From Diphasiastrum complanatum (lineage: Eukaryota > Streptophyta > Lycopodiopsida > Lycopodiales > Lycopodiaceae): a stretch of DNA of 64,000 nucleotides. The stretch is taken from assembly GCA_029204225.1 (NCBI GenBank), contig CM055098.1, forward strand, positions 2,727,106 through 2,791,105. The letters are read 5' to 3'. Below the pieces are notes generated by a model. It ran no database searches. It was not told the origin of the DNA and worked only from the letters and a program-made list of their open reading frames with translations. Both the position numbers and the translations under genes were made by a program. Positions 10,727 through 45,500 of this stretch are shown here, piece by piece. Every line of letters starts with the position of its first letter. Within the stretch, counting starts at the first letter, position 1.

Positions 10727-10728
<2 letters not shown>

Positions 10729-11108
10729 TAGGTCCCGTGGTATTGGGTACCACGGTACCATGATGGTACCGTGGTACCATAATATAATAATATAATTAAT
10801 ATTTAATATTTTTTAAAATTTTTTAAACCTAATCTACCCGCCCCCCTCGCTTCTTCTCTCCCAATTTTTTTGCAGCCATCGTTGCCTTGCCTTCGCTACT
10901 GGTTTTGCTGCCCTGCCTTCCCTGCCTTGCGTCTGATTTGCGTCGCCCTTCTCCCACAGACCGCCCTGCCTTGCATCTGATTTGCAAGAACTTGCCTTCG
11001 CCCATTTTCAGCATCTCTCACATAGTGTACCCTGCTGTTTTTTTTCCAGCATTCCATCCTTGCAGCTTTAGCTTCATCTGCATTTTGTCCCTAGTTTTCT
11101 CCATTGCA

Positions 11109-19458: not shown

Positions 19459-19538
19459 GTGATAAGCTAATCTTTCATAGCATGTTGGTTGACTCCTGGT
19501 ATGTTGGTTTCATTTCTTGATAAAGTTGTCTCTCTGAC

Positions 19539-20401: not shown

Positions 20402-20413
20402 TGGTATCAGAGC
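20402..20413 (+). promoter_or_regulatory. Primer-binding site, initiator Met tRNA type
   Basis: TGGTATCAGAGC directly follows the 5' LTR, the usual Copia complement to the 3' end of initiator Met tRNA. A further palindrome copy (TTTTCACACGTGTGAAA, 20561-20577) lies in the leader before gag. Confidence 0.92.
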
Positions 20414-20996
20414 TAAGTAAGAGAGTGATCATTGAATCATAAATCTTGTAAAGATCATTGGCAAAATTTGTTTTTTGGCCAATACTAGTGAGGGCGAGTT
20501 CTTCTAGAGTGATAGCTTGTAATCATTTGGATAAAAACGACTTGGAGGCTCTGTATGTACTTTTCACACGTGTGAAACCGTACAGCAACTTTCAATTCAA
20601 GTTACTTTGTGTTTGTTGGTCCCAAAATCACAATACTAGTTCATTTTTTGTGCTTTTTGAAGCATAGTATTGATCTAGATTCATTCTAACTAATGCCTAT
20701 GACCAAATAGTGTTTTGGATCATTGAAGCATTTCTTTTTAGAGTCTAAGATCAGATCTTAAGAGGCTGATTTGTTCAGATCCTTAGTTGAAGTGAAATCT
20801 CTAAGAAAAGTGTAAAGCAATTTTTTTGTGAGAGTGAAAGCTAGAAATTTTTGGTAAGATCTTTGAGTATCATTCAAGCTTGTGTGCTAGTTTGATAGAG
20901 ACAAGCCTATAGGCATTCTAGTAAGCTTTAGGCCTTTTCATAGATCTTTTAAAATTCAAAAATCTTTGTGATTTTTAAAAGAGCATTCATTCTAAA

Positions 20997-23900
20997 ATGT
21001 CATCCATGGGTGGATATTTGATGGAATCAAGTGAGAGACTCACTTCCACAAATTATTCCATTTGGAAAGTGAGAATGGAATCACTCCTAATGATCCATGA
21101 TTTATATGACATAGTTCAAGGAGTAGAGGAAGAGCCTCAAACTTCCCAAGAACAAGCCAAGAAGAGAGCAAGATTAGCTCTACATTGCATAAAGTTAGAT
21201 GTATGCAATGACCTCTTGAAAGAGGTGTCTTCTTGTACCTCATCCAAAGAGGCTTGGGATTCATTAAAGAGCATTTATGAATCCAACAGTACTTCAAGAA
21301 TCCTCATGCTAAGAAATCAAGTTTTCCAAAGCATGAAAGGAAGTGGAGAGAGTGGACAAGAGTATGTTCTTAGGATCAAATCTCTTAACAAGGAGTTAAG
21401 TGCAATAGGATAGAAGATCCAAGATCAAGAACTAGTACAAATCATTTTGAATGGTCTAAGTGATGAGTTTACCAACTTAGTCCAATCATTTGCCATTCAA
21501 GACTCTCTTCCATCCATTGAAAAGTTGCACAATGTTCTTGTGGCCGAGGAGAGTAGGCTTCTACACCTCAAGACAAGAATGGATAGCATGTCACTTAATG
21601 GAGGAGAGGAGAAAGCTAACTTTACATCTAAAGGCAAGAAAAAGCAAAATCCATTCAAGAAAAATCAAGGCAAGGAGGCCGAGATGAAGAATGGAGGATC
21701 TACCTCCAAAGGCAAAGTGAAGAACAAGGCAAAACTAAAGTGTTTCTTTTGTGGAAAGAAAGGACACTTTGCCTCAGAATGCTACTTGAAGAAGAATTAA
21801 CAAGCCAAAGGAAATCAAGGGAACATTGCTCAAGAGAGAGAATATGAGGATGGATTCAACACATCCTTAATGGTTGCATCTACACCAACTTCAAGTCAAG
21901 ACACATGGTGGATAGATAGTGGGGCTAGTTCCCACATGTCCTTTAACAAGCATTATTTTTCTACTCTTCTATCTTGTAATGACTCTAAGAAGTCAATATA
22001 CACTGCTAGTGATCAAGCATGCAAGATAGATGGCATAGGATCTATACCTCTTTGTTTAGGCACATCTAAAAGGATAGATCTAGATAATGTTTTGTATGTT
22101 CCTACCATTTCAAGAAACTTGCTTAGTGTAGGACAATTAATGGACAATGGACTAGATGTACATTCCAAGAATGGAGTTTGTTCCATCTTGAAAAATGATA
22201 AGTGCATAGCTAGTGGCATTAAGCAAGGTAGACTTTTCAAGTTGGATGCTAATGTTGCAAGTGAAAGTGTGAACTTGGCTAGGGAGGAGCTAACTCAAGT
22301 GGAGCTTTGGCATAAGAGATTAGGCCATCCTAATCTTCAATCTATGGAGTCAATGGCAAGCAAGAAACTAGCTCTCGGCCTACCAAGAATTTTCAAGAAG
22401 TGTGGAAAAATGTGTGAGGCATGTGGCCTTGCAAAGTCACACAAATCTTCTTACAAGAAATCTTCATCAAGATCTCTCTCTCCCTTGGATCTCATACATT
22501 CTGATGTACATAGTTTTTCACATGCAAGTAATGGAGGTGCCTTGATGTATGTAACTTTTATAGATGATTGTACTAGATTCACATGGATTGAGTTACTATC
22601 AAAGAAAAGTCTTGTTTATGAAGCTTTCATTAAGTTCAAGTCTCTAGTAGAGAAACAACTTAGTACTTCTATCAAAGCACTAAGATGTGATAATGGAGGA
22701 GAGTACATCTCCAATTAAATGAAAGACTTTTGTGAGATCAATGGTATTAAGTTACAATACACTTGTTCTTACACCCCTCAACAAAATGGGGTGGCCGAGA
22801 GGAAAAATAGGAGTCTATGTGAGTGTGCAAAGTCCTTGAGGCTTGATGCATCACTTCCCATCTCATTTTGGAGAGAAGCCATAACATGTGCTAATTATGT
22901 GTAATAGACTTCCTAGTAATGCTCTAGATGGGATCTCACCTTATCAAGCCTTGTTTGATAAGAAACCCAATGTAAAAGATTTTAAGATCTTTGGATGTAC
23001 TTGTTATGTACACATTCCTTTGGAGACTAGAAGGAAAGAAGATGCTACCTCCTTCAAAGGAATCTTTGTTGGCTATGGAGAAAATAGCAAGGGATATAGG
23101 ATATATGATCCTACATCCAAGAAAGTAAAGGTAAGCAAGGATGTACTTTTTGATGAGTCACAATTTGCTAAGAGCTTGTCAAATGGATCTAACCCATTGT
23201 GCATTGAAGATCTTGACAAATCCGAGGAGGATCTTGACAAACCCGAGGAGGATCATGACAAACCCGAGGATGGAGATTTGGATCCGAGTCAAAAGGGGCC
23301 AAGAAGATCATCAAGGAGCAAGGCCGAGCCCTCAAGGCTTACCTATGTGGACAAGGGAAAGCAAAAGGAAGGCTCTACATCTTCTACCTCTTACTCCTTT
23401 TTAGCTACATTGATTGAAGAACCATCATCTTTTGAAGAAGCATGTAAATCTAAAGTTTGGAGAGATGCAATGCAAGTAGAGTATGATGCATTAGAAGAGA
23501 ATCATACTTGGAATCTTGTAAATCTTCCAAGAGGAAAGAAACCACTTGCATGTAAGTGGATTTATAGAATTAAGTACAATCAAGATGGATCTATTAGTAA
23601 ATACAAAGCTAGGCTTGTTGCTAAGGGATTTCTTCAAATAAAAGGATTGGATTATGAAGAAACATTTGCACCTGTAGCTAAGCTTGTAACTATTAGATTA
23701 ATCATTTGCATTGCTACTTTGTTCAAATGGGATCTCTACCAAATGGATGTGACAAATGCCTTCTTGAATGGCTTCTTAGAAGAGGAAATCTACATGATGC
23801 AACTCGAGGGCTTCATCAAGGTTGGTAAGGAGCAAAAGGTGTGCTACTTAAGGAAGAGCCTATATGGCTTGAAGCAAGCACCTAGAGCTTGGTACTCTAG

Positions 23901-24969
23901 GTTGCATGATTTTCTCTATTCCCTTGGCTTTGTACTAAGTGCTTATGAACCTTCTTTATATTTCAAATGTAATGAAGGAAAGATCATCATTTTGGTTCTT
24001 TATGTTGATGACATCATTATGACAGGAAATGATGATGATGGCATAGGCAAAGTAAAAGTTGACTTATCTAGTGAGTTCAAGATGGTAGATCTAGGCTTCC
24101 TAAAGTTTATACTTGGGATAGAAGTGTCTAGAAGTAGCAATTGTACTTTCATAAGTCAATCTAAGTATGCTACTTCCATTCTTAAAAGATTTGGTATGAA
24201 AGATTGTAAGGGGATTGACACCCCTATGGAGCATGTTGTGAAAGCAACTAATGAAGGTGATGAAGCATCCTTTGAGGACATCACTCTCTTTAGGAAGCTT
24301 ATAGGCTCTCTAATCTATTTAACTATCACTAGACCTAACTTAAGTTTTTGTGTAAGCAAGTTGAGTCAAAGTATGCAAGCTCCTTTAGTTCATCATTGGA
24401 AAAGTGCCAAGAGAGTACTTAGATATGTTTCTAGTACTAGATTTTTTGGCATACTTTATGAAGGATCTAACTTGCACTTGAGAGCCTACTCGGATTCAGA
24501 TTTTGCAGGTGACAAGATGGATAGGAAGTCCATTAGTGCATTTGCAACATTTCTTTGTGGAGGAGTGATATCTTGGCTTTCCAAAAAGCAAGATACAATC
24601 TCACTATCTTCTTGTGAAGCCGAGTACAAGGCATTGACTTCAACAATCAAAGAGCTCCTATGGCTAAGAAGACTCTTGATGGAACTACATGTGCTAGAGG
24701 CCGAGGAGATCCCTTACATATTTTGTGACAATCAAGCTTCTCAACAAATTGCTTCAAATCCTATCTTCCATGCTAGAACAAAGCATATTGAGATAGTTCA
24801 CCACTTTGTGAGGGAGAAGGTACAATCCAAGGAAGTGCAACTACGTCATGTACCATCATCCGAATGCATAGCTGATATCTTAACCAAACCATTGTCCAAA
24901 GATCCATTTTTTAAGTTAAGATATGCTCTTGGAATTGTAGATAGATGTACACTAGATTTGCCAAGTTAG
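20997..24969 (+). pseudogene. Copia gag-pol region (fossil)
   Basis: Gag opens with YSIWKVRMESLLMIHDLYD and ends in a CCHC knuckle (CFFCGKKGHFASEC) near 21750. Protease is marked by WWIDSGASSHMS near 21910. The integrase zinc region shows LWHKRLGHPN near 22310 and the core follows. Reverse transcriptase shows KARLVAKGF and YVDDIIMTGND near 24010. RNase H shows YSDSDFAGDKMDRKS near 24490 and ends with ADILTKPLSKDP near 24880. The order protease-integrase-RT-RNase H defines Ty1/Copia. The region is broken in about four places. It lies wholly within intron 3 of hAT copy C, in the same orientation. Confidence 0.92.
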
Positions 24970-24982
24970 AAGTGAGGAGGAG

Positions 24983-25816
24983 TGTTGAAAATTGTCACTT
25001 CTCACTTGACATTGGTTCATGTAAATATTGATCAAACATTAGAATATGTTGATGATATGATTTCACACGTGTGGAGCCTGTTCCCACGTGTGAAAGGATG
25101 TACTTTTCATGTTTGTATATATCCAAATTGATTTTGTATCATTCTAGTTAGTGTGAACATGAAATGACTAGTTTTTAGTCAACTTGACTAGTCACCTACA
25201 AATTAGCTTTTCCTTGCATGTGCATGAGTAAATGCTCCCACATGGCAAGTGGATGTTCACACGTGTGTATAGAGTACTAGAAGATAAGAGTTGACCATTT
25301 TCCTTAGATCCTATTTTGTAGGGAATATTCCTATATTCTAGGAGACTAGCTTTTTGGATTTTAGTCATATTCTAGAAGGTCAACTATTGGATAAGGATCA
25401 AGGATGGATAAAATGGATAGATCTGAGTGATGTGGCACTCTTCACACGTGTGAAGGCCTGCTGGACTGTACCAGACTCATGGATGTACTTGATCCATAAA
25501 AGGATCATCATTTTGCTAAGAAAATTGATGAGACTTTTGCACTCTACACTTTTGTGAGATTTCTAGTCATTTGTCTTGTGATTTTTATGCATGATTGCTA
25601 TCTAGTATCATTGTACTTGTTGTTTCAGGTGCAGGCCGTACAGTGGACAGTACTCCACACGTGTGAAGCCGCTCTCACTAAAAAAAATGATGTGTTGATC
25701 CATTGCTCTTGCTTAAATCCAAGTGTAGTGAATCTAGATCAAGATCTAATGTGTAGAGCTTGATAGATTCTTGTAAAGTACAATCATTATTGTCCTAAAA
25801 ACTGTAAAATTTATCA
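24983..25816 (+). repeat. 3' LTR of the Copia element (834 bp)
   Basis: It follows a purine tract (GAAGTGAGGAGGAG, 24969-24982) and begins with the same TGTTGAAAATTG as the 5' LTR. It is nearly identical to the 5' LTR except for one block of about 30 bp present only in the 5' copy. Confidence 0.93.
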
Positions 25817-25843
25817 TTGACATGCAAATTTTATACCTTGCAG

Positions 25844-26690
25844 ACGAAGATATCAGATTTGGAGCGCCCTACGGACAGCACCCATCCCATGCCTGCAGAT
25901 GACCTGGGCACACAGTTGATGGCAGAGAGAGGGAGAGAGCTTGCCGAGATGAGAGAGAGAGAGAGAGCTTGGGCTTGAGCACAGAGAGCCCCCATTGTAT
26001 GAGGCAGATGAGCCAGTGTCAGAGGATGAGCATGATGAGGATGAGCCCATTCGGGTTGTGTTTGCCAGACCAGAGAGGGATGAGGCAGATTATACAGGTG
26101 CAGGGCACACGCCACGGGCAGGGGTCACAGGTGCATCACGTGGCTGAGGTGGGACACATGGCACAGGTTATACCGGCAGACGGGGAGGGCACACAGGGTG
26201 GGCCAATGGCATACCTACCTATGTTGACATGATGGAGGAGGCTCTTGATAGAGGGCAGAGTGGTTTAGATGTCGGTCCCGCAGATGTTTGGATGCGTGTA
26301 GCACAGAGTCATGGCCGTTACTAGGACAACACACCAGAGGAGGCACCTGATGACTTTGATTGCACAGATTGGGAGGCCATGCAGGGTCTATAGGGTGCAC
26401 ATGATGAGGCACGGGATGAGGGTTGGGTTGATTCAGGGGTTGGTGCACAAGATGATTCAGAGGTTGGTGCACAGGATGATTTAGAGGCTGGTGCACAGGA
26501 TGATTTAGAGGCTGGTGCACAGGATGAGTCCCAGAGCCCAGAGCATTTGTATTCGGATGCCCAGCTGGCCGACTTGGTTGCCACATTGGATTCAGAGGTC
26601 CAGCAGATGTCGAGTGTCAGGGCGCCCCCATCATCTCTTGCCAGCATGCCATACACAGAGTCCCAGCCAGAGCGGCTTGTTATTTTTATG
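25844..26690 (+). pseudogene. hAT copy C, detached C-terminal exon
   Basis: It resumes copy C beyond the Copia insertion. The CCTTGCAG acceptor (to 25843) leads into sequence matching copy B's last exon (ACGAAGATAT...GATTTGGAG). It is frame-shifted early in the GA-rich part. It keeps a segment deleted from B, with a four-fold 8-residue repeat, then matches B again (SSVRAPPSSLASMPY) before all similarity ends near 26671. The AT-hook portion is absent. Confidence 0.7.
26438..26533 (+). repeat. 24-bp coding tandem repeat, four copies
   Basis: Units start at 26438, 26462, 26486 and 26510, each like GGTTGGTGCACAGGATGATT plus four bases. In frame they give an acidic 8-residue repeat of the type VGAQDDLE. 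It lies in the hAT tail exon of copy C and is absent from copy B. Confidence 0.9.
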
Positions 26691-29209: not shown

Positions 29210-31640
29210 TATCATGGAGGGATGGGGCCGAGAATTGAGGAGGAGTCACCTCGAGTCTTCTCACCTAGAAGATCACTAAGAGAAAGATCCGAGCCTAAGA
29301 GGCTCTCATATGGTGAAAAAGGCAAACAAATGGATTTCGGTTCCACTTGTTATGCATATTTTATCTCACATGAAGAGCCAAAGGATGTCCAAGAGGCACT
29401 CAACTCAAAAGAATGGTTTTTAGCCATGCAACAGGAATATGATGCATTGATCACCAACAAGACATGGGAGCTTGTGGATCCTCCATCCAATAAGCATACT
29501 ATTGGTTGCAAATGGGTCTTTTGAGTCAAATATAATCAAGATGGCACAATCAACAAATATAAGGCAAGACTTTGTGCAAAGGGATTTTCATGGACTTGAT
29601 TATGAAGAGACCTTTGCTCATGTTGCAAAGATGGTATCAATAAGAGTTATCATATCCATTGCTTGTTTTTTTAAATGGAAGGTGTTCCAATTAGATGTCT
29701 CAAATGCTTTTTTAAATGGATATCTAGAAGAAGAAATCTATGTGGAACAACCTCAAGGATTCATCAAAGATGAGTCCAAAGTTTGCTTGCTTTTCAAAAA
29801 TCTTTATGGACTAAAGCAAGCACCAAGATCTTGGTATTCTCGACTTAACTCTTTCCTTATCTCACTAGGATTCATTCTTAGTGACTATGATCCTTCCATG
29901 TATATCAAGTTTTATGCTAGTGATATTGTCATTCTTCTCATTTATGTTGATGATATTATCCTAAGTGGAAGTTGTATCAATTTAGTTGAAGAAACTAAAG
30001 TTGCACTTGGAGGAGAATTCAAGATGCAAGATCTTGGAAAAATTCATTGCAATTAGATTGACTTTCATAATGATAAAGCTTTTATTTGTCAATCCAAGTA
30101 TGCTCTTTCAATGTTGAAGAAGTTTAATATGTTAGATTGTAAGAGTATTGATACTTCAATGGAGCAAGTTGTAAAAGATCCTAATAAAGGTGATGAAAGA
30201 TCCTTCATGGACATCACTCTTTTTAGGAGTTTTATAGGCATCTTAATTTGGCTTACCATAACTAGGTCTGATTTTAAGTTTTAGTGTTCATAAGATAAGC
30301 CAAGCTATGCAAAATCCTACAATTCATCATTGGAAAATGGAAAAAAGAGAAGTTAGGTACATATCTTCAACCTATGATTATGGATTGTTGTACAAAAATG
30401 AAGACCTTTCTATGATTGGATATTCTGACTCGGATTTTGCTAGTGATAAAGTGGATCGGAAATCTACAAGTGCATATGTAATATACCTTGGAGGGAATTT
30501 AATATCTTGGCTTTCTAAAAAGCAAGATACCATATCTCTCTCATCTTGTGAAGCTAAATATAAAGCACTTACTACTACAACAAAAGAAGTGTTTTGGATC
30601 AAGAGGTTGCTTTCATCAGTTACGTAGTCTTTAGCAACCAATGCAGATCTGCACAACGAATATCAATTCACAAAATAGTTAGGAGAGATCTATACACACA
30701 ATGTATTGACTGCAACACATTGCTAAAACTCATTCAAGCAAGTGAAAATTAATAACCGATAGAACTAGTGATTGCATTAAATCAAAAAAAAATTAAACAA
30801 TTTCAAGACAAATAAGTTAGTACAAACTTGAATGTATGGATCCTTCTTCTTCGGTGACCTCCTCTTGATGAAAGATCACAAAGATCCTTTGTTGTCTATC
30901 ATCTTCTTTAATTACTTTTCGTCTTTTTTATTCATGAAGTCCATAACTTTAACTAAAGACAAATATGAGATATACTTGGATTGAAATGCATCATCATTAT
31001 TATTATTTGTAAAATCATGTAAAGAACAATATTATATTTCAACTTCTTTCTTGAGGACCTCACTTTCTTACATACAAATTTTCAACTTCAAATGTTTTTA
31101 ATGATAATCTTTTGATATTTTCCTAATTCTCAAGATCTTGGTAACATGATTATGGACCTTTGCGATCCTTTCGATTCAAGAAAGACTCTTGATTTTCTCA
31201 TGGAGTTGCAGCTAATTTCAAGGAGGAGAAGCTTGGGGATCAATCGTGTTCTTCAAGGATGGAATAAATCAATGGCAAAAGTGTGCAAATGGTGGAAAGC
31301 TCTTCTTGGTGCTTGGAAATGTTTTTCAATCAAGGAAGCCTTGTCATGGTTATGGTGATCTTGTTGCAATCGCATGTTTATTGGCTAGTTTTATCACCAA
31401 ATCCATGCCAAAGGATCCACTTGAGAAGCTATTTTTGGCTACTTAAGTGAGAACTAGCATACTTATCAAGCTAATTTTTGAGGTGTGAAAAATATGCAAA
31501 ATTTAGCTTGATTAGTGTACATTTTCATGTACATATGTGAGGAGCATGTTCCTACATGTGAGTAGCAGGCCTATTTGCATTAGCTAATTCATGCCTTAGA
31601 ATTTGTTTTACAAAGCAATGTGAAAGTAGGCAAAAGCTAG
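29210..31640 (+). mobile_element. Old Copia fossil, pol 3' half plus probable LTR edge
   Basis: Reverse transcriptase (KEWFLAMQQEYDALITNKTW, LDYEETFAHVAKM, YGLKQAPRSWYSRLNSFL, IYVDDIILSG) and part of RNase H (YSDSDFASDKVDRKS, SWLSKKQDTISLSSCEA) are readable at 29390-30610. A short RNase H end (TKSMPKDPLEKLFLA) reappears at 31390-31445, with unrelated sequence between. An LTR-like stretch from about 31460 shares words with the young Copia LTR (GTGAGGAGCATGTTCCTACATGTGA). Gag, protease and integrase are gone. It has many breaks and is much older than the element at 19539. Confidence 0.8.
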
Positions 31641-31649
31641 TCAAGTATA

Positions 31650-32290
31650 ATCGTGCCGCCATCCTTTTTACTAACTAAAAGGATTGGTGCTCGAGCCCCA
31701 AGGGGACTTACTAGGCCGAATATGGCCCATCCTAAGGAGTTCTTATAACTGCTTAGAAATTTCATCCTCTTTCTTGATGCTAACCTTGTATGGAAAAAGA
31801 AATATAGGTTGACTTCCAGAAAACAACTCTATCTGATGGTCAACAGTCCTTTCGGGAGGTAGGCCATCAGGGAGTTTATCAAGAAAAACATCGCTATACT
31901 ATTGCCTAAGTTTGTTAAATATTATTCCTTCAGGTGAGTTAACACTTAAGGGATTATTTACAGGCACATTCAAAGGCAAATGAGATAAATCAATATTTAG
32001 ATTCTGGACTGGATGGTCATCCACATAAATTTCATCTTTCAAAAAACAAAGATAAACTATATTACCAGAATCTTTCAAATATTCAACAACTTCTAAAGCA
32101 GAAACCAAAGGATCAAAAGGCCTATTTACATCGCCTTTTAGCTCAACCAACGAGTCCTTATGCAAAAAGGAAATACTATGTGTAACATAATCCTTTCTTA
32201 AAGACTCATTTTTGGAGTAAAATCATTCTTTTCCTAAGATTATGTCTACGCTATCCAAGTTCATCATTAGATAAAATATGGGCCCAAAGA
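31650..32290 (-). mobile_element. Ty3/Gypsy fossil fragment (protease end to RT start)
   Basis: Read on the minus strand, a protease-tail region (SVDIILGKE near 32250) is followed by the lead-in to reverse transcriptase: LPDGLPPERTVDHQIELF near 31860, then MGHIRPSKSPWG near 31690. It is cut at the RT start and abuts the older Copia fossil. It has several breaks and no LTRs were seen. Confidence 0.75.
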
Positions 32291-32646
32291 GGGCCCTATA
32301 AGAAATGCCATGTAGGAGAGAGAAAAATAACTATAAAGTAATTATAATATCATTTTCTAACTTCTTTGCACATCTGAATGCACCTTAGTTTAGTCACATC
32401 AAACTTCACTGGTGTTTAACCATAGTTAAAATATAATTTTTCAAAATGCTGAAATACTCCCTCCCAATAGTTGGGAACACTCAAAAATTTGAATTAGGAG
32501 TGACATTTCTGAAAAAAGCCTACGCATCTCTATCTCCAGGGTCAAAAACAAGTGTTTAGCGCCATCTCTATCTTCAGCAGAGTCGTTAGCGCCATCTCTA
32601 GCTTTGTTATTGTCATTGTGTTGTTTGTTACTGTACTACTGTACTG

Positions 32647-35377
32647 ATGACAAAGCTTCATCATCTTCATGTGGATCTGTCACCAGAATATGCTCCGCTC
32701 AGGACGAGAAATTCAAAGCAACCCAAATTGTCAACTTCTGATATGGTCCGATACAGGGAGGAAAAGCTAAAACATGTAGATTTATGGTCATCAGGAACAT
32801 TGTACCCTATTGATCCATGTTCAGTGCAACATCCAGATTTTCATTCGGTGAGTCAGTTAATAATCTATATGTGTCATAAAAATGGCCTTTTGGGTTATTG
32901 TGAGTATTTGATGCTCTATGCTAATGCACATTCAATGCAAAAAATACATTATTTGGAAGAGGAATCAAGCAAAATATCAAAGGAGTGCGAAGAAAAATCT
33001 ACAAAGATGAAAACTTGTTTGGATGAAAATGAGATGCTCAAGGAGGAGATCCAAAGGTTGAAATCTTCTTTGCATCATTATACAACTAGTAATGATGAGA
33101 TAAAAATTGCATTTCAATCCATGTGTATCTCATATTTGTCTCTTGTTAAAGATATGGATGTGCTCAACATAAAGGTCCGAAGCAACAAGAGGAAAAGACT
33201 GGTAAACAAGGATATATGTGATCTATCATCCAGAGGAGGTCATAGAAAAAGACAAATCCGTGCATTCAAGTAAGTTATAGCTTATTTGGTATTGAATAAT
33301 GCTTGAACTTTTTGATTCATTCATAATCACTAATTTTGTTAGAGATTCATTTCAACTTTATGTTGATTTGCTTATTATATACTGCTGTGAATACTATGAG
33401 TGTCCTAATTTCTACTGACATTTTCATGAACATTATGTTTGCAATGCAGATCAACATTGGTTGTTGAAGACCATTTGGCCGATGAGATTTCAATTGGAAA
33501 CTCACTAGGCTCTATCTTGACTTCTAAATCTATGAAATCAATGTTAAATAATAACAAAATGAAAAAGATTAAGGCATCAGTTACTGATAGCATTATGGAT
33601 GAAGTTGGAAAAATATTAGACACTACATTGCTTCATGGGGCATTTGACTTTTCTAGCATCAGTAGGGAAGCATATGCAACAATGTTTAAGATGATAAAGG
33701 AGGCACTTGCACAGGTAAATATTAAAAAGTTTTCAATCCCACGACCATTTCATCTTTTAAAAAAAAGAGACATGGTAAACCATGGTATGCAGACAATAGT
33801 TGGTAATTCATCTCATATCAATGAAGTGTATTGCTCGAAAGGTGAAATTCTAGCTTATAACAATTTCAAGAATTTATTTATTGACATTATTCAGTTATTA
33901 ATATTCATCATAAATTTTTACGGTATTACAAATGAGAATGTCAATAACAAGTTGATAGTTGTTCTCAAGTTAGGTGAGTTTGAGATTATAAAAGGACAAA
34001 AAATGGAAAGAGTCAGTCTCACGATTATGAATGGAGCACTTTCAAAATTAGAAGACTCAGAAGGCCTCAATTTCAGTGTTCAATTAGAAAATGATATCTG
34101 GTGGTTGGCAGCATTTCAGGTATAGCAGTTCCTTCACATAATAAATAGGGATAATCATTTGAATATGGATTTCATATCTAAAATCTTCTCTGTGTTAATA
34201 TTATGAGGCTAATCACATTTCTGTATTCTCTTATAGGTGCTGAAAGAAGACCGTGACATTTTCTCATGTATATTTAATAGAACATCATATCCTGCCACCA
34301 TAAAATATCACATGGAGGGAGTTCCACTCAATATTCCTGGAATTGGCACCTTCAACATTGAATGGCATTTAGCGAGAGATCTGAAGACATTAAAATGTAT
34401 GGTCAATGTATCTCATGGCGCTAACTCTAAACACCCTTGTTTGTACTGCATGAAAACAACAAAAAGACATGACAAGGAGTACAGGAACATCAAGAGATCA
34501 AGAAGATCCTAATTGGAAACCTGTACTACTGATTTTTCTACGAAATGTTCATATATGTACATTGCATGCGGAGGTGCGAATTATAGAAAAAATAATATAT
34601 CTTCACACCTTGTTTGCATGGAATTCTGAGCCAGAGGCCTCTGCGAAGGAAGCTATTTCCAGATTAGAGAATGTGTTGTCCAAAGCAGGCTTATATAAAG
34701 GCCACATTAAAATGAAAAAAGATGACAAGCTATCAGGTAAAATAGGAAATATTCCATGCAAGCCGAGCATTGGAGGATCTAAAGCTCGAAGATTTTTATC
34801 AAATTATTCAGGCAAACAATCTAAGCTTCAATTCACAGTTTGGAAAGAAATTATTGTAGCAACTCAAGATTTCGAAGAATAAGGTTCTACTCGTATACAC
34901 AAAGTAGAAGTTTGGAAAAAGTTAGACAACATGGTGAAATACTTGAGAAAAGATAAACTTTCAAATACTGATGTATAAAGATACAAAAAACAACCAATGA
35001 ATTTGTGAATGCAGTTCAAAGTGCATGGGGTGTTGATCATATAACACATTATATGGTAAGATTTTGATTTTACACTACGATAGACAAATATGTGCAATTA
35101 AATTAGATAATTTTGGTACTGATTTAGATTATGTTTTTATAAAATGCAACACATATTACGACATCATTCGACATTCTTTGCAAGAAATAGTGGAAGTCTT
35201 GGCATATGGTCATCACAAGGAATGGAAAAATCCCATTTGAAGCAAGAGCGACATTTCATAAAAGTACACAACATGGTTGGTTTTACAGAAGAATCCAAAT
35301 TCCTCATAATACAAAATCGACGGATTATAAAAAACTTTCAAAAAGCATGCAAATTTATACAAGCCAGTAGGCTATAG
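32647..35377 (+). pseudogene. Spliced transposase-like gene of unassigned family
   Basis: Exon 1 (32647-33269) has a coiled-coil segment (EESSKISKECEEKSTKMKT) and a basic end (KRQIRAFK). It joins through GTAAGT/GCAG to exon 2 (33450-34119), then through GT/TATAG to exon 3 (from 34237); frame is kept across both junctions. Exon 3 has FNIEWHLARDLKTLKCM, then a Cys pair (SKHPCLYCMKTTKRH), a hydrophobic block with NVHICTLHAEVR and a conserved-looking KPSIGGSKARRFLSNYSGK. A further open stretch (35144-35377) has HHSTFFARNSGSLGIWSSQG followed by MEKSH. The order D...HPCLYC...H...SSQG-E resembles large unannotated transposase-like proteins I recall from animals, where the final Glu would be catalytic. 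That is inference from memory. At least two interruptions show the copy is not fully functional. Confidence 0.5.
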
Positions 35378-35437
35378 ACACACAATAAAATTTTGTATAT
35401 TAAATAAAAATATTTACAAAGTACAATTCAGCAGTAT

Positions 35438-36621
35438 CTAATCTGCTTCTAATATTTTTTCCAATGAAAGTTGCAACTTAGAATCATGCAATAATTTTTG
35501 TCTTTCGTATGGATCCAATAGCTCATAGTTTTCATGCTTACTCAGATCAACGTAAGCAGCATACACTGCAAAATGAGATGATCTGAGCATGGACTTCACT
35601 GATCCATATCCTGAAATTTTAACCGCAATAGTTTTCTTTACAAAAATTATTTTATGCACCTTATTGAAATTATGTCCTCCAAGAAAATGAGAGAGTGCCT
35701 TGATTGCCATAATCATAGTTTCACCATGTTGATGAAACTTTGAAGGGGCAACACTTATCTCATTATTCTTGAAGGACTTCAAATAGTGCCCTAGTGCATG
35801 ATCTCCTAAAAATTCTCCAACAAAAGATCTCTGCCCTCCTCGACGAATTGTGACATAACAAATCTACTAGTATTTGATAAGATACAAAAACTTACGCATT
35901 CGGATTTGTCGTCCCTGATTACTGTCTCTCCATCAATATTATGTCCACCTTTCGATGTCAATATTGTTGGTGAATAGACAGTTGGCTGTGGAAAACCAAG
36001 TTGACTTTGGATTCTAAGAAACTCCTCCTCAGAAGGTAGATCATCTTCTTTGTTGCGCATTTCCTCCACAACCATTTTCAAGCAATCTTTCCCTGAATAA
36101 AACTTATCATTATGTACATCGTCAGCACCAGGGAGAAAATCATCAGCATCAAAATCAATTATATCCGAAAATTCATCAAGCTCTTTGCTCAAAATGCAAA
36201 GAGTCTCAGCTTCAGTGAGATCAAAAATATCCGATATATCCGATATTATAAAAAAGGAAGTATTATCTATATTATAAGTAGGCAAAGTGATCAAAGATTT
36301 ATCAGAAGGAGAAAAGGTAGTGGGTGTTCTAGGGCCTATGAACGTAGCCCTATTTTGAGCATGATCAAAATTAGAATAATCATCTAAATTAACACTCATA
36401 TCAAAAAAAGAAGTATCTATATCTACAATCTTTGACTTTTTAGACCTTGTACCACTAGAATAAGCTACTTTAGAAGTGGAGGGGACAGCCTCTGAATCGT
36501 CAAAAATATTTAACAAAAGAAAAAAAAACAAAAGTGGACTGAAAATCAACAAATCTACATTTTTATTGTGAATTGGGCACTCATCTATAGACTTGAAATC
36601 ATTATGTAACTTGGTAAACAT
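35438..36621 (-). CDS. Unrecognised two-exon gene with acidic N-terminal region
   Basis: Two minus-strand exons. The first, ending with a GTAAGT donor near 35896, is Ser/Asp-rich (TRSKKSKIVDIDTSFFDM; ELDEFSDIIDFDADDFLPGA) and ends near GETVIRDDKSEC. The second begins after an AG near 35830 and stops at 35438. It is open for about 130 codons and more basic (KKTIAVKISGYGSVKSMLRS; ENYELLDPYERQKLL). The true start is unclear: a hydrophobic run before FDDSEAVPSTSK (about 36515) looks like intron. I recognise no domain. It is head to head with the histone-like gene across a shared 0.85-kb region. Confidence 0.4.
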
Positions 36622-36942
36622 TCAGTCAAGCTTAGCTTTATAGATATGCTTGTCGAATGCCACCAGGTCCTGATAATGAATCATGTCCTTATTCTGAGAT
36701 CTGAACTACGGAGTACTGAGCAGGGACTTAAATCTGAGATATATCTCAAAAAATGCCTCCACACTAGGGCCCTCAGTTATAGAAGGTAGAATAAAAATAA
36801 AAGGAGAAAAAAGCGATTTGAAATACTCCAACCTATCAGTAATACCAAATTCATGAAAAAAAGAAAGCAAACTAGATTCAAAATTAGACATTTTAAACAA
36901 AAACAATAGAACTAAAGTTCCAAATATCGCTCTCAGGCGCAA

Positions 36943-37788
36943 ACTGTAGGTCAGTCAAGCACGTCAAGGCAACGTGCGCTCGAGAGAGATATTTCAAGTT
37001 GGAGTATCGGGTCCGAGCACAAAAACACAAAGCACAAAAGAAAAGAGATGCGAAGCACGCTTGAATGCGATACCGGACGATGCAGTATCGGATCCAGGCG
37101 CAAAATAGTCAACGAAGGGTAATGAGAGCAAGCGGCGCGCTTGAAATCGATATCCGGCAAAGCAATCGTAAATTTACGTGAAAATCTTAGCTGAAAAAGA
37201 TCTGTTTAGAAAAAAAAATTTGCACATGTGGAAGAGTGTCGAAGAAACACGTGTCGACTTGTGATTGGTCAAAATAAATGTGTCGTACCTAGAATGATTG
37301 ATTTGACATCTGTCACGTGCGAGAATGACACGCATCGAGAACGGATTTGCACACGTGTCTCAGCCCACATGGCCTCATAATTGGGTCATCATTGTCAGTA
37401 CGGACATTCCACATGGACGAATAATCTAACGACATGTGTCTTCGCCGTGTTTTCACACGTGCAAAAATTTCATATATATAAGTCCTCGGAATTTTCATTT
37501 TTTTTCGCAAAATTTTCGCTTTTAGCTCCCAATATCGCTCTCAACCGCGCTCTTTCACTGTTCAAGCTTTCGTCCTCTCATAGTGCGCTCGAGTCTGATA
37601 CCGCTGGTAGTGCAATATCACTTTCGAGCGCGCATCTCTTTTCATAAAATAATCTGTGTAGATCTTGCTCTCAAAACCGATATCCAGTTCTGGTATCGAT
37701 CTTTAGCGCCCTTTTATCGCAAATTTTTTTGTTTTCAACCACTTTTCTTTTGTTCAAACTTTTTTTTGTTAATCTTCTTCTTCTGAGA
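36943..37788. promoter_or_regulatory. Candidate bidirectional promoter region rich in ACGTG boxes
   Basis: Lies between two divergent gene models and is richer in CpG than its surroundings. It holds several ACGTG-core elements (ACACGTGTCGAC near 37248, CACACGTGTCTC near 37350, TCACACGTGC near 37453) and a TATA box TATATATAAG at 37473-37482 facing the histone-like gene. It also repeats words such as GATATC/GATACC with CGGA. Promoter function is inferred from position and motifs. Confidence 0.4.
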
Positions 37789-37791
37789 ATG

Positions 37792-38253
37792 ATGGCCAGG
37801 ACCAAATCCACTGCTCGTGCCATAACCACTGCTCATGCCATAACCACTATATAGCCATCCCATTCCCGTGTTTCCCCTGGTATTGGCCGTAGGCGTGGCA
37901 GGAAGCAGGTCTAGCTGAGGGAGATCAGAAAACTCTAGAGATCAACTGAATTGTTGATCCCTAGAGCTCCTTTTGGCCGATCTGTACGGAATGTCACTCT
38001 GTCACTTGAGCTAAATGTTCATTTTGCCATGACAGCCATGCAGGCCTTACAGGGTGCTACAGAAGATATTATGTCCCAGTTTTTTGAGGATACTTGCCTT
38101 TTGGCAGTGCATGGTAAGCATGTCACCATCTTGCCAAAGGATTTCGTCATTCTCAAAAGGCTTTGGGACAGATATTCTGGTCTGCATGTTGATAATGCCA
38201 GCACCTCCAGAGACCTGCCTCTGGAAAGAATCAACTTGTCTAACTACCTCTAG
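37792..38253 (+). pseudogene. Highly divergent histone H3-like gene (degenerate)
   Basis: It starts MARTKSTAR, the canonical H3 N-terminus (MARTKQTAR). The modified tail is poorly conserved. The alphaN and histone-fold regions are clear: LREIRK, then STELLIPRAPFGRSVRNV, then HFAMTAMQALQGATEDIM, FFEDTCLLAVHGKHVTILPK and D. These match H3 LREIRKYQKSTELLI, PFQRLVREI, FQSSAVMALQEAAEAY and [21 protein letters not shown] in order and spacing. In the fold I estimate about 40-45% identity, far below any normal H3, which is nearly invariant. About three in-frame stops show this copy is dead, yet the frame is held over about 150 codons. A basic tail (SRRKRKQHVPKKAGSRRPAA) can be read just downstream in another frame. 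Confidence 0.8.
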
Positions 38254-38270
38254 AAGGAAGAGAAAGCAGC

Positions 38271-38850
38271 ATGTCCCTAAGAAGGCTGGATCTCGAAGGC
38301 CAGCTGCTTCCCTTCCTCCTAGACGTATCCCGGCCAAGAGACCTCCGTGTCTTCTTGAGCTCTATGTCAGATGTTGGAGAATCTGACTCAGATCGAGAAT
38401 CTTCACCCCTTCCTCCTCCTGTTATTTGTCCAGCTCCTCAGCAGGTTTCATCACCAAAAGTGTTGATTACCCAAGAGGAGCTAGACAAAATAACAGAGAA
38501 ATCTGTAAATATTGTTTCCACTTCTGTTTCTGCTCCTGTACATAATCTTTTTGTGAGAATTCCATACAATCCAGCCCAGGTTTTTTTTTATTCTGACCAT
38601 TATAATCAATACGAGACCTAGCTAGCTAACAAAATTGATCTTCTCGGCAACTTTTTTGATTTTTATCTTCCAGATACACGTAAAAGCTTTAGATTAGGTC
38701 CCAAATTTTGTGCCAAGTTAAAAGATAAGACCTCGGAAATTTCAGATGTAATAGTAGAGGCCAAAGTTTTTTTCTTGCAAGATAGTATTAGTTTTGACTC
38801 CACGGTACAGTTTTTGTTGTTAGTCCATTTTTCATGGGAGCGGTAAAGGC
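38271..38850 (+). CDS. Unrecognised ORF downstream of the histone-like gene
   Basis: An open frame (38271-38621) with a Ser/Asp/Pro-rich start (MSDVGESDSDRESSPLPPPV) and then a more globular part (LITQEELDKITEKSVNIVST; HNLFVRIPYNPAQVFFYSDH). Similar coding character continues past its stop to about 38850. It may be part of the same transcription unit as the H3-like gene or a separate gene. No domain recognised. Confidence 0.3.
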
Positions 38851-39037
38851 GAAAGAAGCCAATTTTGAGGAGAATGTCTATTTTATTCAATGCAGTCCTA
38901 TGGCAAAATTCTATTTGATTCCATATGAAAATAAGTAAGGATTGCTCTTTTGTTTTTCTTATTTTAATCTGGATTGTTGCATGCTTCGTTGCTTTAATAA
39001 GTAAGGAATTTTTTTGTAAATATGAATTTATTGATAT

Positions 39038-39916
39038 TTGTATTTTGGTTGTTGCAGTCGGCATTGGAGCCTAAACATTCTTTTTGTTAAGATAAATAAG
39101 GAGGGAGTATCAAATTTTCTATGTGTAAAATTAAACTCAGCTCAAAGTACACATAGAGAATTTGATTCTCTACTTCATGATGTCGTTCGGGAAATATCGA
39201 CAATGGCAACTTCAATTGGAGAGATAACCATTAAATCTCTCAAGATATATTCAATTTATCTCTTATATGCATGTATTCCTTTTTTAATTCAAATGTATCG
39301 TCATAGCATAAATAAAATTTCTATCATGATATTATTAATTTCTGTTCTATATATGCAGTGTGTATAGCAAAAAGACTCTTTTAGTTGTGCATGTTCATCC
39401 TGTACAATACGAAGTTATTTTTTGAATGGTATAATCTACAAGTGGATGTAGATATTGAAAAGGTAATATTCTGTTCATTTGTAGTTCATTTCATTTTGAT
39501 TCATATTTTTTTACTATCATTGTTTGTAATTTGCTGATTCTTGTGTTTTGTGATGACAGTTCACTCTTGAGCCGTATACTCCTGATGATGTATATAGATT
39601 TCGGCAAGAGTTGATCAGAACCTATGCTCGGTACGGTGTAAGCGTTGGACCTGCAATCGAGGGCCCTCAAAAGGAAGCTGCTCCTGCCTTAACAACCTTT
39701 CAGGTTGCTCAGGATGCAGATCTTATTTTATATGAACAAAAAGGAATAAAAGTCCTTCCAAATATAGAGGAAGGCAATTTTATAGTAGATATTCCTCTTG
39801 CCTTAAAAGGCATTGAGGCCCTTCCCAAAACAGAGGAGGGCGAGATTATAGAAGGAGCTGTTGCCTTATCAGTTTCTAATACTGATATAGAAAATATAGA
39901 AAAATTGATTGAATAG
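39038..39916 (+). CDS. Unrecognised multi-exon gene remnant
   Basis: A first stretch (about 39060-39240) reads NILFVKINKEGVSNFLCVKL and EFDSLLHDVVREISTMATSI. A middle exon follows an ATATATGCAG acceptor near 39360. A last exon starts after GATGACAG near 39560 and is open to a stop at 39916. It includes EPYTPDDVYRFRQELIRTYA and a tandem motif GIKVLPNIEEGNFIVDIPLA then GIEALPKTEEGEIIEGAVAL, an internal duplication of about 22 residues. Several frames are involved and one exon is interrupted. Function unknown. Confidence 0.35.
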
Positions 39917-40115
39917 AGATCTATTTGTAAATAGAGAGACATAAAAAAAAAATTACAATCATTTTACATATAAACAACCCGCTTATGGATTTTTTTTATT
40001 GATATCACAATAGATTCTTACAATCAGGTTGTGTCCATAGTCTAATACTGGAATGCAATTTTTCTATAATGATAAAAAGACATGATGATTGGCATGTATT
40101 TGTTGATAGTGAATC

Positions 40116-40531
40116 TCAATGTTCTTCTATTAGTTGGATTGTTTCGCCAATATCTCTGCATTTGATCTCGAGCTCATGTCTTTTACGTACCTGTATAAAA
40201 CTAATACAAAGTTAGTTAGAATTAGTACAGAGTTTGTATTAGAAAGTTTTGATTGAAACTATTCATAAAAGATTGAGTGTTTACAGTTACTTACGAGTTT
40301 ACCATTAAAAATGAATCTCAAGTCTGAAAGTACATCATCTTGTAGGAGCAATAGTTCCCGCCGAATGTAGTTTAGACTCCAATCTTCTTCCACCTCAACA
40401 CATGTCAAAACGACATCATTGTATATAATTTCAATATTTTTTCGTTTTGAATGTCCACTGGCTTCCGAGTCTTGATCGAGTTGCACCCATTTACCTTTAT
40501 TTTTTTTTTCCATCTTTGATAATGGAAGCAT
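40116..40531 (-). CDS. Intact two-exon gene for a 103-residue protein with possible ubiquitin-like fold
   Basis: Exon 1 (40531-40295) starts MLPLSKMEKKNKGKW; an alternative Met lies six codons later. It ends at a clean GTAAGT donor. Exon 2 (40190-40116) follows a TTTATACAG acceptor and adds VRKRHELEIKCRDIGETIQL plus IEEH, then stop. Both junctions are phase 0 and the whole frame is open. After a basic, nuclear-signal-like stretch (SGHSKRKN) comes VVLTCVEVEEDWSLNYIRRE, then DLRFIFNGKL continuing into VRKRHE across the junction. That alternation suggests a compact beta-grasp-like domain, but this is a guess from pattern. It is one of two minus-strand models on the right side of the block. Confidence 0.5.
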
Positions 40532-40764
40532 AAGCTCAACATTTGTTTTTCAATTTGATAACGGAAGCACATGGAATACATTTTAATTCTGCATTCTATT
40601 TCTCCATCTGATCTTTTGTCTCAGCCTTCATCCATAAGTTCAGATAATAAACTATTTGATAAATTTTTGCATATAAACATCGTTGGGGTTTTGTGTACAT
40701 TGACACTTGAAAAGAAATCCACAAATGTATTCAACGAAATAAACCAACTCAATCTGACTATTTT

Positions 40765-41360
40765 TTATCTCGTGCTCATTTTTAATGAATTTTTTACATC
40801 ATTATTTATCTTGCAATGAAATGATTCTAAAAATGTAGCATTTGGTGCAATCCATTCATCGCTTTCAAAACTAGGTAATGGAATTGGTACTATTTGTCCA
40901 AAATTTTCTTTTGTATCAGGAATGTACATTGATTCATAAAAAAAAATTCCACTATCAGCTAGATTTTTTGCAATTCTACCTCGATATTGCAGCTGTCCAA
41001 TATCAGTGTGAATAATATCTAACACACCTGCTAAAGATGCACTCGGCTCTCATTCATTTATGTTGGATGGATATAAATCTGCGAGAGAAAAATAATCAGA
41101 TTGGCAAGTTTACTATTAGATATTTATGAATGACAAAAATCAAAGTATCAAAAATATCAATACTCACAGTTGTTTTTTTTGTGATCCTAATGGTTGAATC
41201 CTTGCTTTTTGTCTTTGAATGCATACATACATGTTGGACTAGAATTAATAAGATCGAAATGATAGTCTTGACCTTTTCCTTTTTTGAAATGCTCCTCTTG
41301 ATGATGGATGCATAAAAAACCAAGAGTTTTTTGAATATTTTCGTGGCACTCATAATCCAT
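40765..41360 (-). pseudogene. Unrecognised minus-strand gene, partly degraded
   Basis: Upstream piece near 41360-41180: one frame from the ATG at 41360 (MDYECHENIQKTLGFLCIHH) is Cys/His-rich. An overlapping frame from 41353 runs to a GTGAGT donor. The downstream piece (about 41075-40765), after a TCTCTCGCAG acceptor, reads SLAGVLDIIHTDIGQLQYRG and IPLPSFESDEWIAPNATFLE. I cannot decide which upstream frame is real. One interruption is present near the downstream exon start. No family recognised. Confidence 0.3.
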
Positions 41361-41394
41361 TATCATATGTCTCGTTGAATTGAAGCATAGAGTA

Positions 41395-42560
41395 GATTGA
41401 GGAGCAAGGCTTCCTTGATGGCGCCATTATTCTGGATCACTTGATGGGTCCAAGAACCTTTCACATTCTTGATAGTCAGTTCGTTAAGCGACAAGTCTCT
41501 CTTCCCGCTTCTTCTGTAGGTGTTGGTCTTATTTGCACATATTCCATTGCTCTAGCTACTTTTCTAGGGAGTTGGGCCCTTGTTGCCTCTGCACTTATCT
41601 CTCAGTTTCAACAGGGCAACCAGCCCATTCTTCTTGATTCAGTAGCTCATGTTTAATCAGACAAACTTCCTTTCCAGCAACATCTTCGTGCGGCCAAGGG
41701 TCTCATCCCTCCACCTGTGCGAGCTTCTTTGCCTCTTTTTGAAACTTTGCTCAACCATCATTGGCCTCATGGAGCAGTTCCACTCACATGCTTTCACCCA
41801 TCTCCTTAGTGATTCACCTTCCAACGAGACTCAGGCTCGCCTTCTTTCTTGTGCAGGCCCAGGTGTTGGTGTTTGGCTTGTTGCACGCCATGTTGTTCCA
41901 CTCTTGCGCCTTTCTTTAGAGTTGTTTGTCACCATCCTTCGTGTCATATTGGGTCTTCCGGTCACCCTCTTGATTCTCTTGGCACTCATCTCGTATGTTG
42001 CCCTTCTGGTAGGGATCGCACTGCGACTCATGATTTCATTCATTCGTGACGTACTTGCATGTATTGCTCATGAATGCGGCTTTCATATTGTTCGGGAGCA
42101 TACTCACATTTTGCCTACGTCTGACACAATTGTCTTGTCGTCGGGTTGACCTTGTCCTTTCGCACGAGGGGATTCGCACCCTTGGGGATGTCATTGTTGC
42201 TGATCCCTTGCAGAGAGAGGGTCTTCGTCGTGCCTCAACTATCCAATGTGTTGTTGCTTTCATGCAGCTCAAGATAAAAGGCGGGATTATTTACAACGGA
42301 CTCCCAGAGAAGATTTTATTCCTTTTGCCTTGGATACTTACGAGTGCCTGCATAAGAAATTCGATGACTTTCTATCAACCTATGCAGGATTTGCAGCGAA
42401 ACTCCAAGGACATGGTGCATCGCCTTTATCCATCATTATGTCCTATTATTGTCAACGAGTTTCAAATCATTCAAGCATTTGCAATACTTCAACGTGCCGT
42501 AGTTGCATGAATGGTTGCTTCACAGCTTCCTGCACTACCTAAACTTGCAACTATCTTAGC
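41395..42560 (+). mobile_element. LINE-like retroelement, C-terminal pol remnant
   Basis: Sequence after the reverse transcriptase of a non-LTR element: GFLDGAIILDHLMGPRTFHI, then SSVGVGLICTYSIALATFLG with SWAL, the usual GGLGL...A.LGSWA block. Shifted frames then give KLPFQQHLRAAKGLIPPPVR, CPSGRDRTATHDF, HECGFHIVREHTHILPTSD and RRVDLVLSHEGIRTLGDV. RRDYLQRTPREDFIPFALDT follows, the end domain typical of such elements. At least four frame changes and several stops make it dead. The RT core is absent and the left edge falls at the end of the gene block. Confidence 0.7.
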
Positions 42561-45500
42561 TAGTGACTTACATCAAGCAGTAGGATTTCAATAGCTACTT
42601 TGTGGGTCTTTTGCTTTGTTATAGGTGATGTATAGTATCTCAATCCACCTTATGGCCTTTATACTTTCTATATGCATTTCTTTGTACTTCAAAGGGTTTT
42701 CCCATCTTTTATTAATGAAAACAAGAAGTCTCTCTATCTAGAGGCAGACTATCTATTGTAGCACCCCGAGCCATTGGAGTAGCCCACCATTTGGATGGCG
42801 AATTCCATACATAACAGTTGCAAAATGATGTCATGTGTCCAATATAACTTCTCACAACTGCTACAAAAAAATTGAAGTTTTGTGGTTCAAATGTAATTTG
42901 ACTAAAGTGGAATGAAAAGCCTCTTTTCCATTTGAAATTGAAATTGGAGTTTGGCTATTCTACTGCTATGAAAAAATTCAAGGTGAAATTTGCCCTACTG
43001 TTGACTAAAGTTGCAGGTATGTTATTTGAAGAATATCTTATCAAAGTGAAACTATCAGGTTAAAGGCTATGAAAAGGTCAGCCCTAGACAAAGTATGAGC
43101 AAAACTTTCAAGTGAAATTTTGCCTTAGTGCATTAACTTGTTGAAGTTTTACTGGTGACAAAATGTCAGTGACTTGATGACATTATTTCAAAGTAAAATT
43201 TGACTATCATCTTCTTCTTTGAAGTTTTAACACTTCAAAACATATCTCAGAACTTTATTGTATATGGTCCAACCCTTTATATGACAGGTTTAGCCTTGTT
43301 TTTAGTGCCCGATGAGTGCTTCAAAAAATCTGAAATTTGTTTCAAGTCACATGAGGTAGAATTCATGTAGTCAACGTGAATTGTCGGTTCCATGTTAAGT
43401 TGAATTTTCTATATTCCTAAAGTGATGAAAATCACTAATGAAGTAGTTTTTCAATACTTAAGAGGACTGATCAGCCTACTTAGTGTTTCTTTTGTGGTTT
43501 TCTACTAAGTTAAAAGAGTGGAATAAGTTTAAAAAGGAGTTGACCCTTGAAAAGATAGGCTCCAGCTGTTAAATTCAGTCTGGAACTACTTTCCTTGATG
43601 CAACTTGTCAGTTTTTCATTATGAATTGGATTTTTAGATCTAGGGGGAGATTTTTCCCATGGCACCTGATTAATAGTAATAGGCTAATTGGTCATTGGCA
43701 AGGAACTCAGTTGGAGTTCATTTGTGAGAATTTATGAGCCTTCTACAAGGTTTTATGGAGAAGTGTTGGGGTATTTTCGCTCTCAGTATTGACCTAGAAG
43801 ATGATGTCCTTGAAGATGCAAGAGAGCCCTATCTTCCTTGTTACGAACCATATTGATCAGCTAATCAATGATGCAGGTGCAGGATGTTTGCTTCTTGTTG
43901 CTCATGGATGTTTGACTTCGAAGGAGTTTCTAACATGTATATGCTCATGTATTTTACTTAGCAGTTTTAGCTTTAGTCATTTATTATTGTAACACAATTG
44001 AAATGTACTCAATAGAGCTAAATGACTAAATGGGGCCTAAATGCCCATAAATAGTGCAAGCTAAGTAATGGACCATTTTGTATTGTGAATAGGTGTAAAT
44101 CATAAGTGGCTTATTGTGACAAGACATAACCTCCACTATCTCTCTACGTAGAGTATTCCTTCTTTCTTTTCATCGTATGGTACAACCTTCTTGAATACAA
44201 GCATGTTGTGTGTTCTCTCTACAATCTCTCTTTCACTATGGATTGAATTTGATGCATGCTCTGATTCGACATCTTTTCTTTATTGTAATCACATATTTGT
44301 TTGTCATTCTGTTTTTTTTTTAATTTCTTTTCTATATTTGAATATAAAATCCATGGATAAGCATGATAAAAATCTAGGAAGCCATAACTAATAAAAAAAG
44401 AAGAGAGAAGGAGATGGAGGCTAACTCATGCACTAAGTTACCATGATGCTTGAAGTCAATTATATAGACTGACATTGAAGAAAAGTTTAGGATTGCCTCC
44501 CTAGCCCACTTGTGATAGAATTTAGTGACATGATCATTGAAAAAGGTGCAATACTACCAAATAAAGCAACAAAAAATGCTAGAAAAAAGCACACTAGAAA
44601 TATGAATGCTCAATTCTCTCCACCAAAGTGCAAAAAGAAAAATTGATACAATAGTAAAAAAGTCTTATTCATAGTCGTAATTATAAAGATAAACTCCTCA
44701 TATATGTGATTTGGCCTCCTTCCATATGACTTAAAGAAGATGATGATGATGATGATGATGTTGAACAAAAAAAAAAAATTGCAAGTTGTCTTACACGCCT
44801 AAGAACACCAACGTCTCACTGAGGATAGAAACATTGTTTTAGTGAAAGTTACATTTGAACAAAAAATAATCTACTTATAAAAATTTTGGATGCTTTAAGA
44901 AAAGTATTGTTGGGCAGGTAAAACATTAAGTTTGATAATGACCATCAGTTATATAAGTACCCAGACTTTACAGGTATGCTTTTCATAGGGAACCAATCAT
45001 TAACGAGAAGCATAGATATAATGCTGCTTAACATTCGTGTGATTCCTTGTTGATAATTGACCTTGTACTTGATAGAACCACTAAGAATTGCCGAAATTAA
45101 AATTTTTACTGATATTTCAAAGCTGCCAAATAATTTCGCACATGAGATTTTGCTTTGTGTGGACCCAACGATTATATATGCCTTCGAAAATTCATATCCA
45201 AGATCAATGAGTAAGTACTAAAAAAAATTATACCACATGTAGCACTAGGGGGATTTCATATTCATAACCTCATGACTAGGATCATATTGGTGATATGATA
45301 AGTAGGCACTGAAACACAAGACAAAACATGAATCTGTTGAGTTTAAATGTTTTTCTCAGAAATCTTTATATACCTTGCTAAGGCATTGACCTACTATAAG
45401 CAATCCAACGCGCTATTGGCTCTCCCATAAAGAAATACTTGAGGCCATAGCTTGAGGCCATAGCTCTCAATTTGTAGAATGCTCTTCAACATGCTTGTTG

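Follow-up and report, generated by a model that had tools for sequence, protein, structure and literature searches.

What is the block of spliced genes at positions 32647-41382 of the window, by which we mean the whole analysed stretch of 64,000 nucleotides of Diphasiastrum complanatum (contig CM055098.1)? A sequence-only reading of this DNA had described it as gene-dense, with unfamiliar spliced genes on both strands, and as a possible large mobile element. We found that both strands of the block hold genes with introns, most of them decayed, and that these are not chance open reading frames (ORFs). Two of them diverge from a promoter of about 900 bp which is a CpG island and carries an ordered array of the motif TATCGnnnTCnAGCGC; array and island are absent from the earlier description and are the most clear-cut new feature of the locus. 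With a confidence slightly short of even, we propose that the block derives from a large DNA transposon of a land plant, of which it would be a decayed copy; that transposon would have had several genes, with introns, and a plan comparable to that of VANDAL elements.

The genes of the block

The longest stop-free stretches between 32400 and 41400 measure 271, 231 and 223 codons. In 200 Markov simulations of this interval, the longest open stretch averaged 126 codons and never exceeded 204; the fifth-longest stretch of the block has 141 codons, against 111 for the largest simulated fifth-longest one. Stop-free stretches so far above the simulations lead us to reject chance ORFs as an explanation, and they bear out the gene-dense character of the block. 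Its genes are the following.

G1, 32647..35377, forward strand: transposase-like gene (splicing and open frame; motif comparison with RAG1)
G2, 35438..36891, reverse strand: gene of an acidic protein with a weak SAM-like C-terminal half (ORFs; Pfam SAM_1)
G3, 37792..38253, forward strand: divergent histone H3-like gene with a MARTK N-terminus and three internal TAG stops (Pfam Histone)
G4, 38364..39916, forward strand: Ulp1/C48-like gene in pieces 38364-38934, 39058-~39272, 39359-39462 and 39560-39916
G5, 40116..40531, reverse strand: intact protein of 103 residues, exons 40531-40295 and 40190-40116 separated by one GT-AG intron of 104 bp
G6, 40765..41382, reverse strand: broken ORFs with no family match

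The shared promoter

The earlier reading had seen divergent transcription from a shared promoter, and the divergent arrangement of G2 and G3 agrees with it. The region between them is made up as follows.

36892..37791, no strand: bidirectional promoter, CpG island (CpG observed/expected ratio 1.45, where the genes of the block have 0.27-0.67)
36925..37152, no strand: left array of TATCGnnnTCnAGCGC, at 36925+, 36991-, 37005+, 37072-, 37086+ and 37152-
37223..37461, no strand: nine CAYRTG (E/G-box) sites, two of them overlapping, by pattern count
37533..37709, no strand: right array of TATCGnnnTCnAGCGC, at 37533+, 37600-, 37616+, 37682- and 37694+

The CpG ratio stays at 1.41-1.54 across three parts of the promoter; 500 shuffles of the promoter all fell short of the observed ratio, of which 1.18 is still left once the motifs are removed. 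The 11 motif copies, three of which are weaker members, alternate in orientation and form units of about 80 bp on either side of the CAYRTG boxes: inverted pairs span 67-68 bp, copies on the same strand lie 80, 81, 83 and 78 bp apart, and the two arrays flank a centre of 380 bp. The pattern TATCNNNYYNNNGCNC, written after the copies were seen, occurs 8 times in the 64 kb, each time within 36925-37709, where 1.29 occurrences are expected and none of 100 shuffles reaches 8. Scored with a matrix built from the members themselves, these members obtain 20.0-27.5 bits and the next-best place in the window 11.5; the highest score in five shuffles of the window was 15.8. CAYRTG is enriched over the window as a whole too (135 observed, 70 expected). 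The single strands of the promoter fold somewhat better than their shuffles (z of -2.38 and -2.68; 3 and 4 shuffles out of 200 did equally well), as is expected of palindromes. Elsewhere in the window, one can notice that 2.7-4.5 kb is about as rich in CpG as the promoter (ratios of 1.24 and 1.45), with a CGCGTC repeat at 3113-3138.

The transposase-like gene and its second copy

G1 has exons at 32647-33269, 33450-33714, 33793-34119 and 34237-34512, which three GT-AG introns join into 496 open codons from the ATG. From 34512 to about 35377 the gene is broken by stops and frameshifts; this broken part carries H-x4-H and GSLGIWSSQGME near 35150-35227, so that the motif series near the end of the protein reads HILRHH...GSLGIWSSQGME. 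Both marks by which a transposase-like protein had been recognized, the HPCLYC cysteine pair and the late SSQG-E, are present in G1.

The order of the motifs, an Asp followed by C-x2-C, H-x4-H and the E motif, is like that of RAG1 and Transib. Three patterns (from H-x4-H to E, the E motif, and from D to C-x2-C), written post hoc to fit both RAG1 and G1, each match once when the window is read in six frames, and that match lies in G1; by these patterns the zinc ligands C-x2-C and H-x4-H and the catalytic E stand in the order and spacing of RAG1. The contiguous ORF of the tail scores 50 against mouse RAG1, which 3 of 2000 shuffles equal. Joined upstream over an assumed splice, which is without a clear acceptor and was picked with RAG1 in mind, the tail scores 60 over 35 columns, which none of 2000 shuffles equals. 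With the six-frame window as target, the RAG1 core also has its best match at G1 (E 0.70, or 0.035 with the tail alone). Profile and PDB searches of G1 returned neither RAG1 nor Transib up to E 10. Since RAG1 was picked after the motif had been seen, we treat the likeness as a lead and not as membership.

A part of G1 is found a second time, 1.5 kb away from the gene and inverted.

30605..31124, reverse strand: second decayed fragment of G1, holding the end of exon 1, intron 1 and the start of exon 2 (alignment; 30605-30626 was added by eye from the translation)

Positions 30627-31124 align with 33471-32968 at 68% identity over 510 columns, intron included. This fragment kept its intron and therefore arose at the DNA level, and its presence means that G1 is multi-copy. 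In exon 1 the two copies differ at 26 of 101, 24 of 99 and 33 of 102 sites of the three codon positions, and in the intron at 57 of 173, so there was at most a slight constraint between them.

The histone H3-like gene and its neighbours

The histone H3-like gene named by the earlier reading is confirmed: G3 matches Pfam Histone with E 1.6e-15, or 5.6e-18 when the stops are read as X (57.9 and 65.8 bits, for a cut-off of 26.4), and the best 60 of its 174 matches in the PDB are all named H3. Over the stretch of the fold that was compared, 33 of 77 residues are identical to canonical H3. The three stops all precede this stretch, across which the frame is unbroken.

G4, the next ORF on the strand, starts about 110 bp past G3 and has three internal TAG stops and a frameshift near 38820. 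Its joined pieces contain the chain HW...NS...Q-x5-C in the order of Ulp1, which none of 60000 shuffles gave (the chain was defined post hoc and N replaces D); the pieces with H and Q join out of phase at the obvious splice sites. Between the ORFs of G3 and G4 a strongly basic stretch can be seen by eye in another frame. Judging from the sequence, G4 is possibly a gene for a SUMO protease (Ulp1), and G3 and G4 may possibly have formed one fused protein.

On the other side of the promoter, the acidic, regulator-like gene of the earlier reading is found at 36891-35438 of the minus strand as an acidic gene, G2. Its exon 1 has two internal stops, its match to SAM_1 (E 0.0047) lies below the curated cut-off, and the AlphaFold model of its C-terminal ORF (mean predicted local distance difference test score of 40.9) is uninformative. 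The intact protein of 103 residues was also recovered, as the two open exons of G5 at 40531-40116 minus; G6 is perhaps the 5' part of the same gene. A reading of G5 as ubiquitin-like was dropped, as its alignment to ubiquitin is no better than those of shuffles (P 0.51).

Taken together, the internal stops of G3, G4 and G2 exon 1 (a count which leaves out G6 and the broken part of G1) are TAG in 7 cases of 8 and TGA in one; TAA is absent. They may have arisen by methylation decay, though the block is not poor in CHG.

Surroundings of the block

To the left, a fragment of a Copia reverse transcriptase lies at about 29451-30587 (Pfam RVT_2, 2.9e-47). The earlier reading had flanked the block with a Gypsy fossil (31637-32222) and a LINE remnant (41396-42510); neither stretch has a Pfam match at E 0.01, so the two names rest on inspection. 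A glutaredoxin-like (GRX) host gene, named by eye from its ORFs, lies around 47.8-52.1 kb; together with the Copia and hAT-like repeats it gives the window, by eye, the look of land-plant DNA. Searched in six frames, the block yielded no transposon family of Pfam, and a search of the window against Rfam gave no match. No relatives of the block were found in viral contigs (4 queries) or in contigs of prokaryote genomes (1 query), collections which are ill-suited to a plant element.

Two hAT-like copies, named by eye, at 10715-13160 and 16674-19162 are 89% identical. The pieces adjoining one of them (13349-14319) recur at 19166-19538 and 25818-26677, where they flank on both sides the Copia long terminal repeats 19536-20402 and 24980-25817; this suggests that Copia inserted into a hAT-like copy. 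The Copia coding region (20979-24969) shows an extreme depletion of CpG (0.10) and CHG (0.10), which sets it apart from the block and from the hAT-like elements and may reflect a long methylation of the family.

Between 31125-32645 and 40900-43000 there are 32 inverted pairs of 14-mers. One pair, 32040/41211, has two mismatches and a flanking repeat of 5 bp, the length of the target-site duplication of RAG1/Transib; as terminal inverted repeats it would cut through G6, and we took it as chance. A perfect inverted repeat of 15 bp, 31329-31343 / 41405-41419, spans the block without a target-site duplication (about 0.01 are expected from composition, by our own estimate). We do not claim it as the ends.

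Weighing the readings

A mobile element is suggested by the transposase-like gene, the possible Ulp1 gene, the accessory genes, the structured shared promoter and the second copy of G1. The earlier proposal is supported in this part, as the gene content fits a large mobile element better than ordinary host genes; that all the genes form one element is a more tentative claim, with no convincing terminal repeat and, in the window, a second copy of G1 alone. In such an element, G1 would act as a DDE-type transposase with an RNase-H fold and a RAG1/Transib-like C-terminal half, and would move the whole. A factor encoded by G2 or by another gene of the element would bind the array and keep the divergent promoter open and unmethylated, while the H3-like/Ulp1-like unit, together with the small intact G5 (or G5/G6), would alter chromatin, SUMO marks or silencing. 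For the role proposed for the array, VANDAL offers a precedent: according to PMC5735166, the VANC proteins of these elements bind motifs which often lie in tandem repeats within the element that encodes them, and cause a loss of methylation.

Several results weigh against this proposal. No Pfam family scored above its cut-off for G1, G4 and G5, and PDB searches with the proteins of the block other than the H3-like one gave no meaningful relative: nothing for the core of G1 or for G4, chance matches for G5, and for the tail of G1 only papillomavirus E2 at E 0.12, taken as chance. The stretch of G1 upstream of the tail, where the catalytic core would lie, scores against RAG1 like its shuffles (P 0.39); the second D (ARDLKTL) and the E of the DDE triad are present, and the position of the first D reads GEFE, with no clear Asp. 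The alignment of G4 to yeast Ulp1 has a P of 0.08. Clean GT/AG introns, which the sequence-only reading had granted to most of the genes, hold for G1 and G5; of the three candidate introns of G4 the first keeps the frame and the other two break it at the obvious sites (donors which keep it are 39182 or 39185, and 39473, which adds a stop). Within the window a second copy exists for G1 and for no other of these genes, and no convincing terminal repeats surround the block. Finally, the CpG and CHG content of its genes is about that of the host GRX region, unlike that of the Copia element; this point is tempered by the hAT-like copies, which share the GRX-like content.

We set the single element slightly under one half because the block may consist of two separate units that happen to adjoin. 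G1 would then be a remnant of one transposon, and G2, H3-Ulp1 and G5-G6 an unrelated mobile element or gene cluster adjoining it by chance. The second copy found for G1 only points this way, as do the lack of any motif tying G1 to the other genes, the array being confined to 36925-37709, and the exons 1-4 of G1, free of stops where the H3-like gene and G4 have three each. Against it, the 3' ends of G1 and G2 face each other across about 60 bp (35377/35438), and no mark of an edge was noticed there, the gap not having been searched on its own. We regard this juxtaposition as somewhat unlikely.

It is less probable, though compatible with the other readings, that G3 descends from an ordinary H3 of the host as a neutrally decaying pseudogene, unrelated to the rest. 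This would account for its three internal stops, and the share of mismatches with a non-negative BLOSUM62 score does not depart from neutral decay (P 0.16). In 2000 simulated runs of neutral decay, however, the 77 codons stayed free of stops in only 4.7% and the mean mismatch score was as high in only 3.7%; the frame of the fold is unbroken and the gene starts behind a structured promoter. We therefore lean towards a variant whose evolution as a protein preceded its breakage.

A little more doubtful still is a lineage-specific host cluster, in which an H3 variant, a protease-like gene and a partner shared one bidirectional promoter and are now pseudogenes beside a transposon remnant. The divergent CpG-island promoter, the introns, the gene-like CpG and CHG content, the host-type content that a histone gene represents and the intact G5 agree with it; an H3 so far from the canonical one, the multi-copy G1 and the remains of Copia, hAT-like and other repeats around the block do not.

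Returning to the single transposon, we think it improbable that it stands for a new superfamily of large plant DNA transposons, mobilized by a RAG1/Transib-like transposase and defined further by an H3 variant and a SUMO protease transcribed as a single unit, perhaps even as one protein, and by a palindromic promoter array with a period of 80 bp which its own factor would keep unmethylated. Were the proposal true, a histone variant beside a SUMO protease and a structured, CpG-rich promoter would mean that a transposon counters chromatin silencing with parts of chromatin, and a RAG1-like transposase in a plant element would widen the known range of the RAG1 lineage. Even a dead copy supplies concrete queries, namely the exons of G1 and the TATCGnnnTCnAGCGC array.

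Comparison with known systems

A literature search found no description of such an element among titles and the openings of abstracts. The nearest in plan are the Arabidopsis VANDAL elements (non-TIR MULEs with VANA, VANB and VANC, and a Kaonashi/KIU type with Ulp1), which likewise have several genes, introns, a transposase and a regulator, an Ulp1 domain in some of them, and short motifs repeated in their noncoding DNA. Ulp1 domains occur in plant DNA transposons, some VANDAL-like elements included, according to the review PMC13317346, in which the word "histone" does not appear; the block carries an H3-like gene. Unlike VANDAL, the block shows no MULE-type transposase, as no Pfam transposase was found in its six frames; its motif differs from the YAGTATTAC of VANDAL, and its array lies in a shared promoter.

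One survey reports 39 Transib-like proteins in plants (PMC9435367). G1 resembles RAG1/Transib in having an Asp followed about 20 residues on by C-x2-C (counted by hand), then H-x4-H and G-S-x-G-x-W-x-S-x-G-x-E at the spacing of RAG1; it differs in having no significant Pfam or PDB match and no clear first catalytic Asp. Finally, G3 differs from core histone H3 by its altered tail, by its stops, and by what follows it, a basic stretch in a different frame and then the Ulp1-like ORF; it shares with core H3 the MARTK start and the histone fold.

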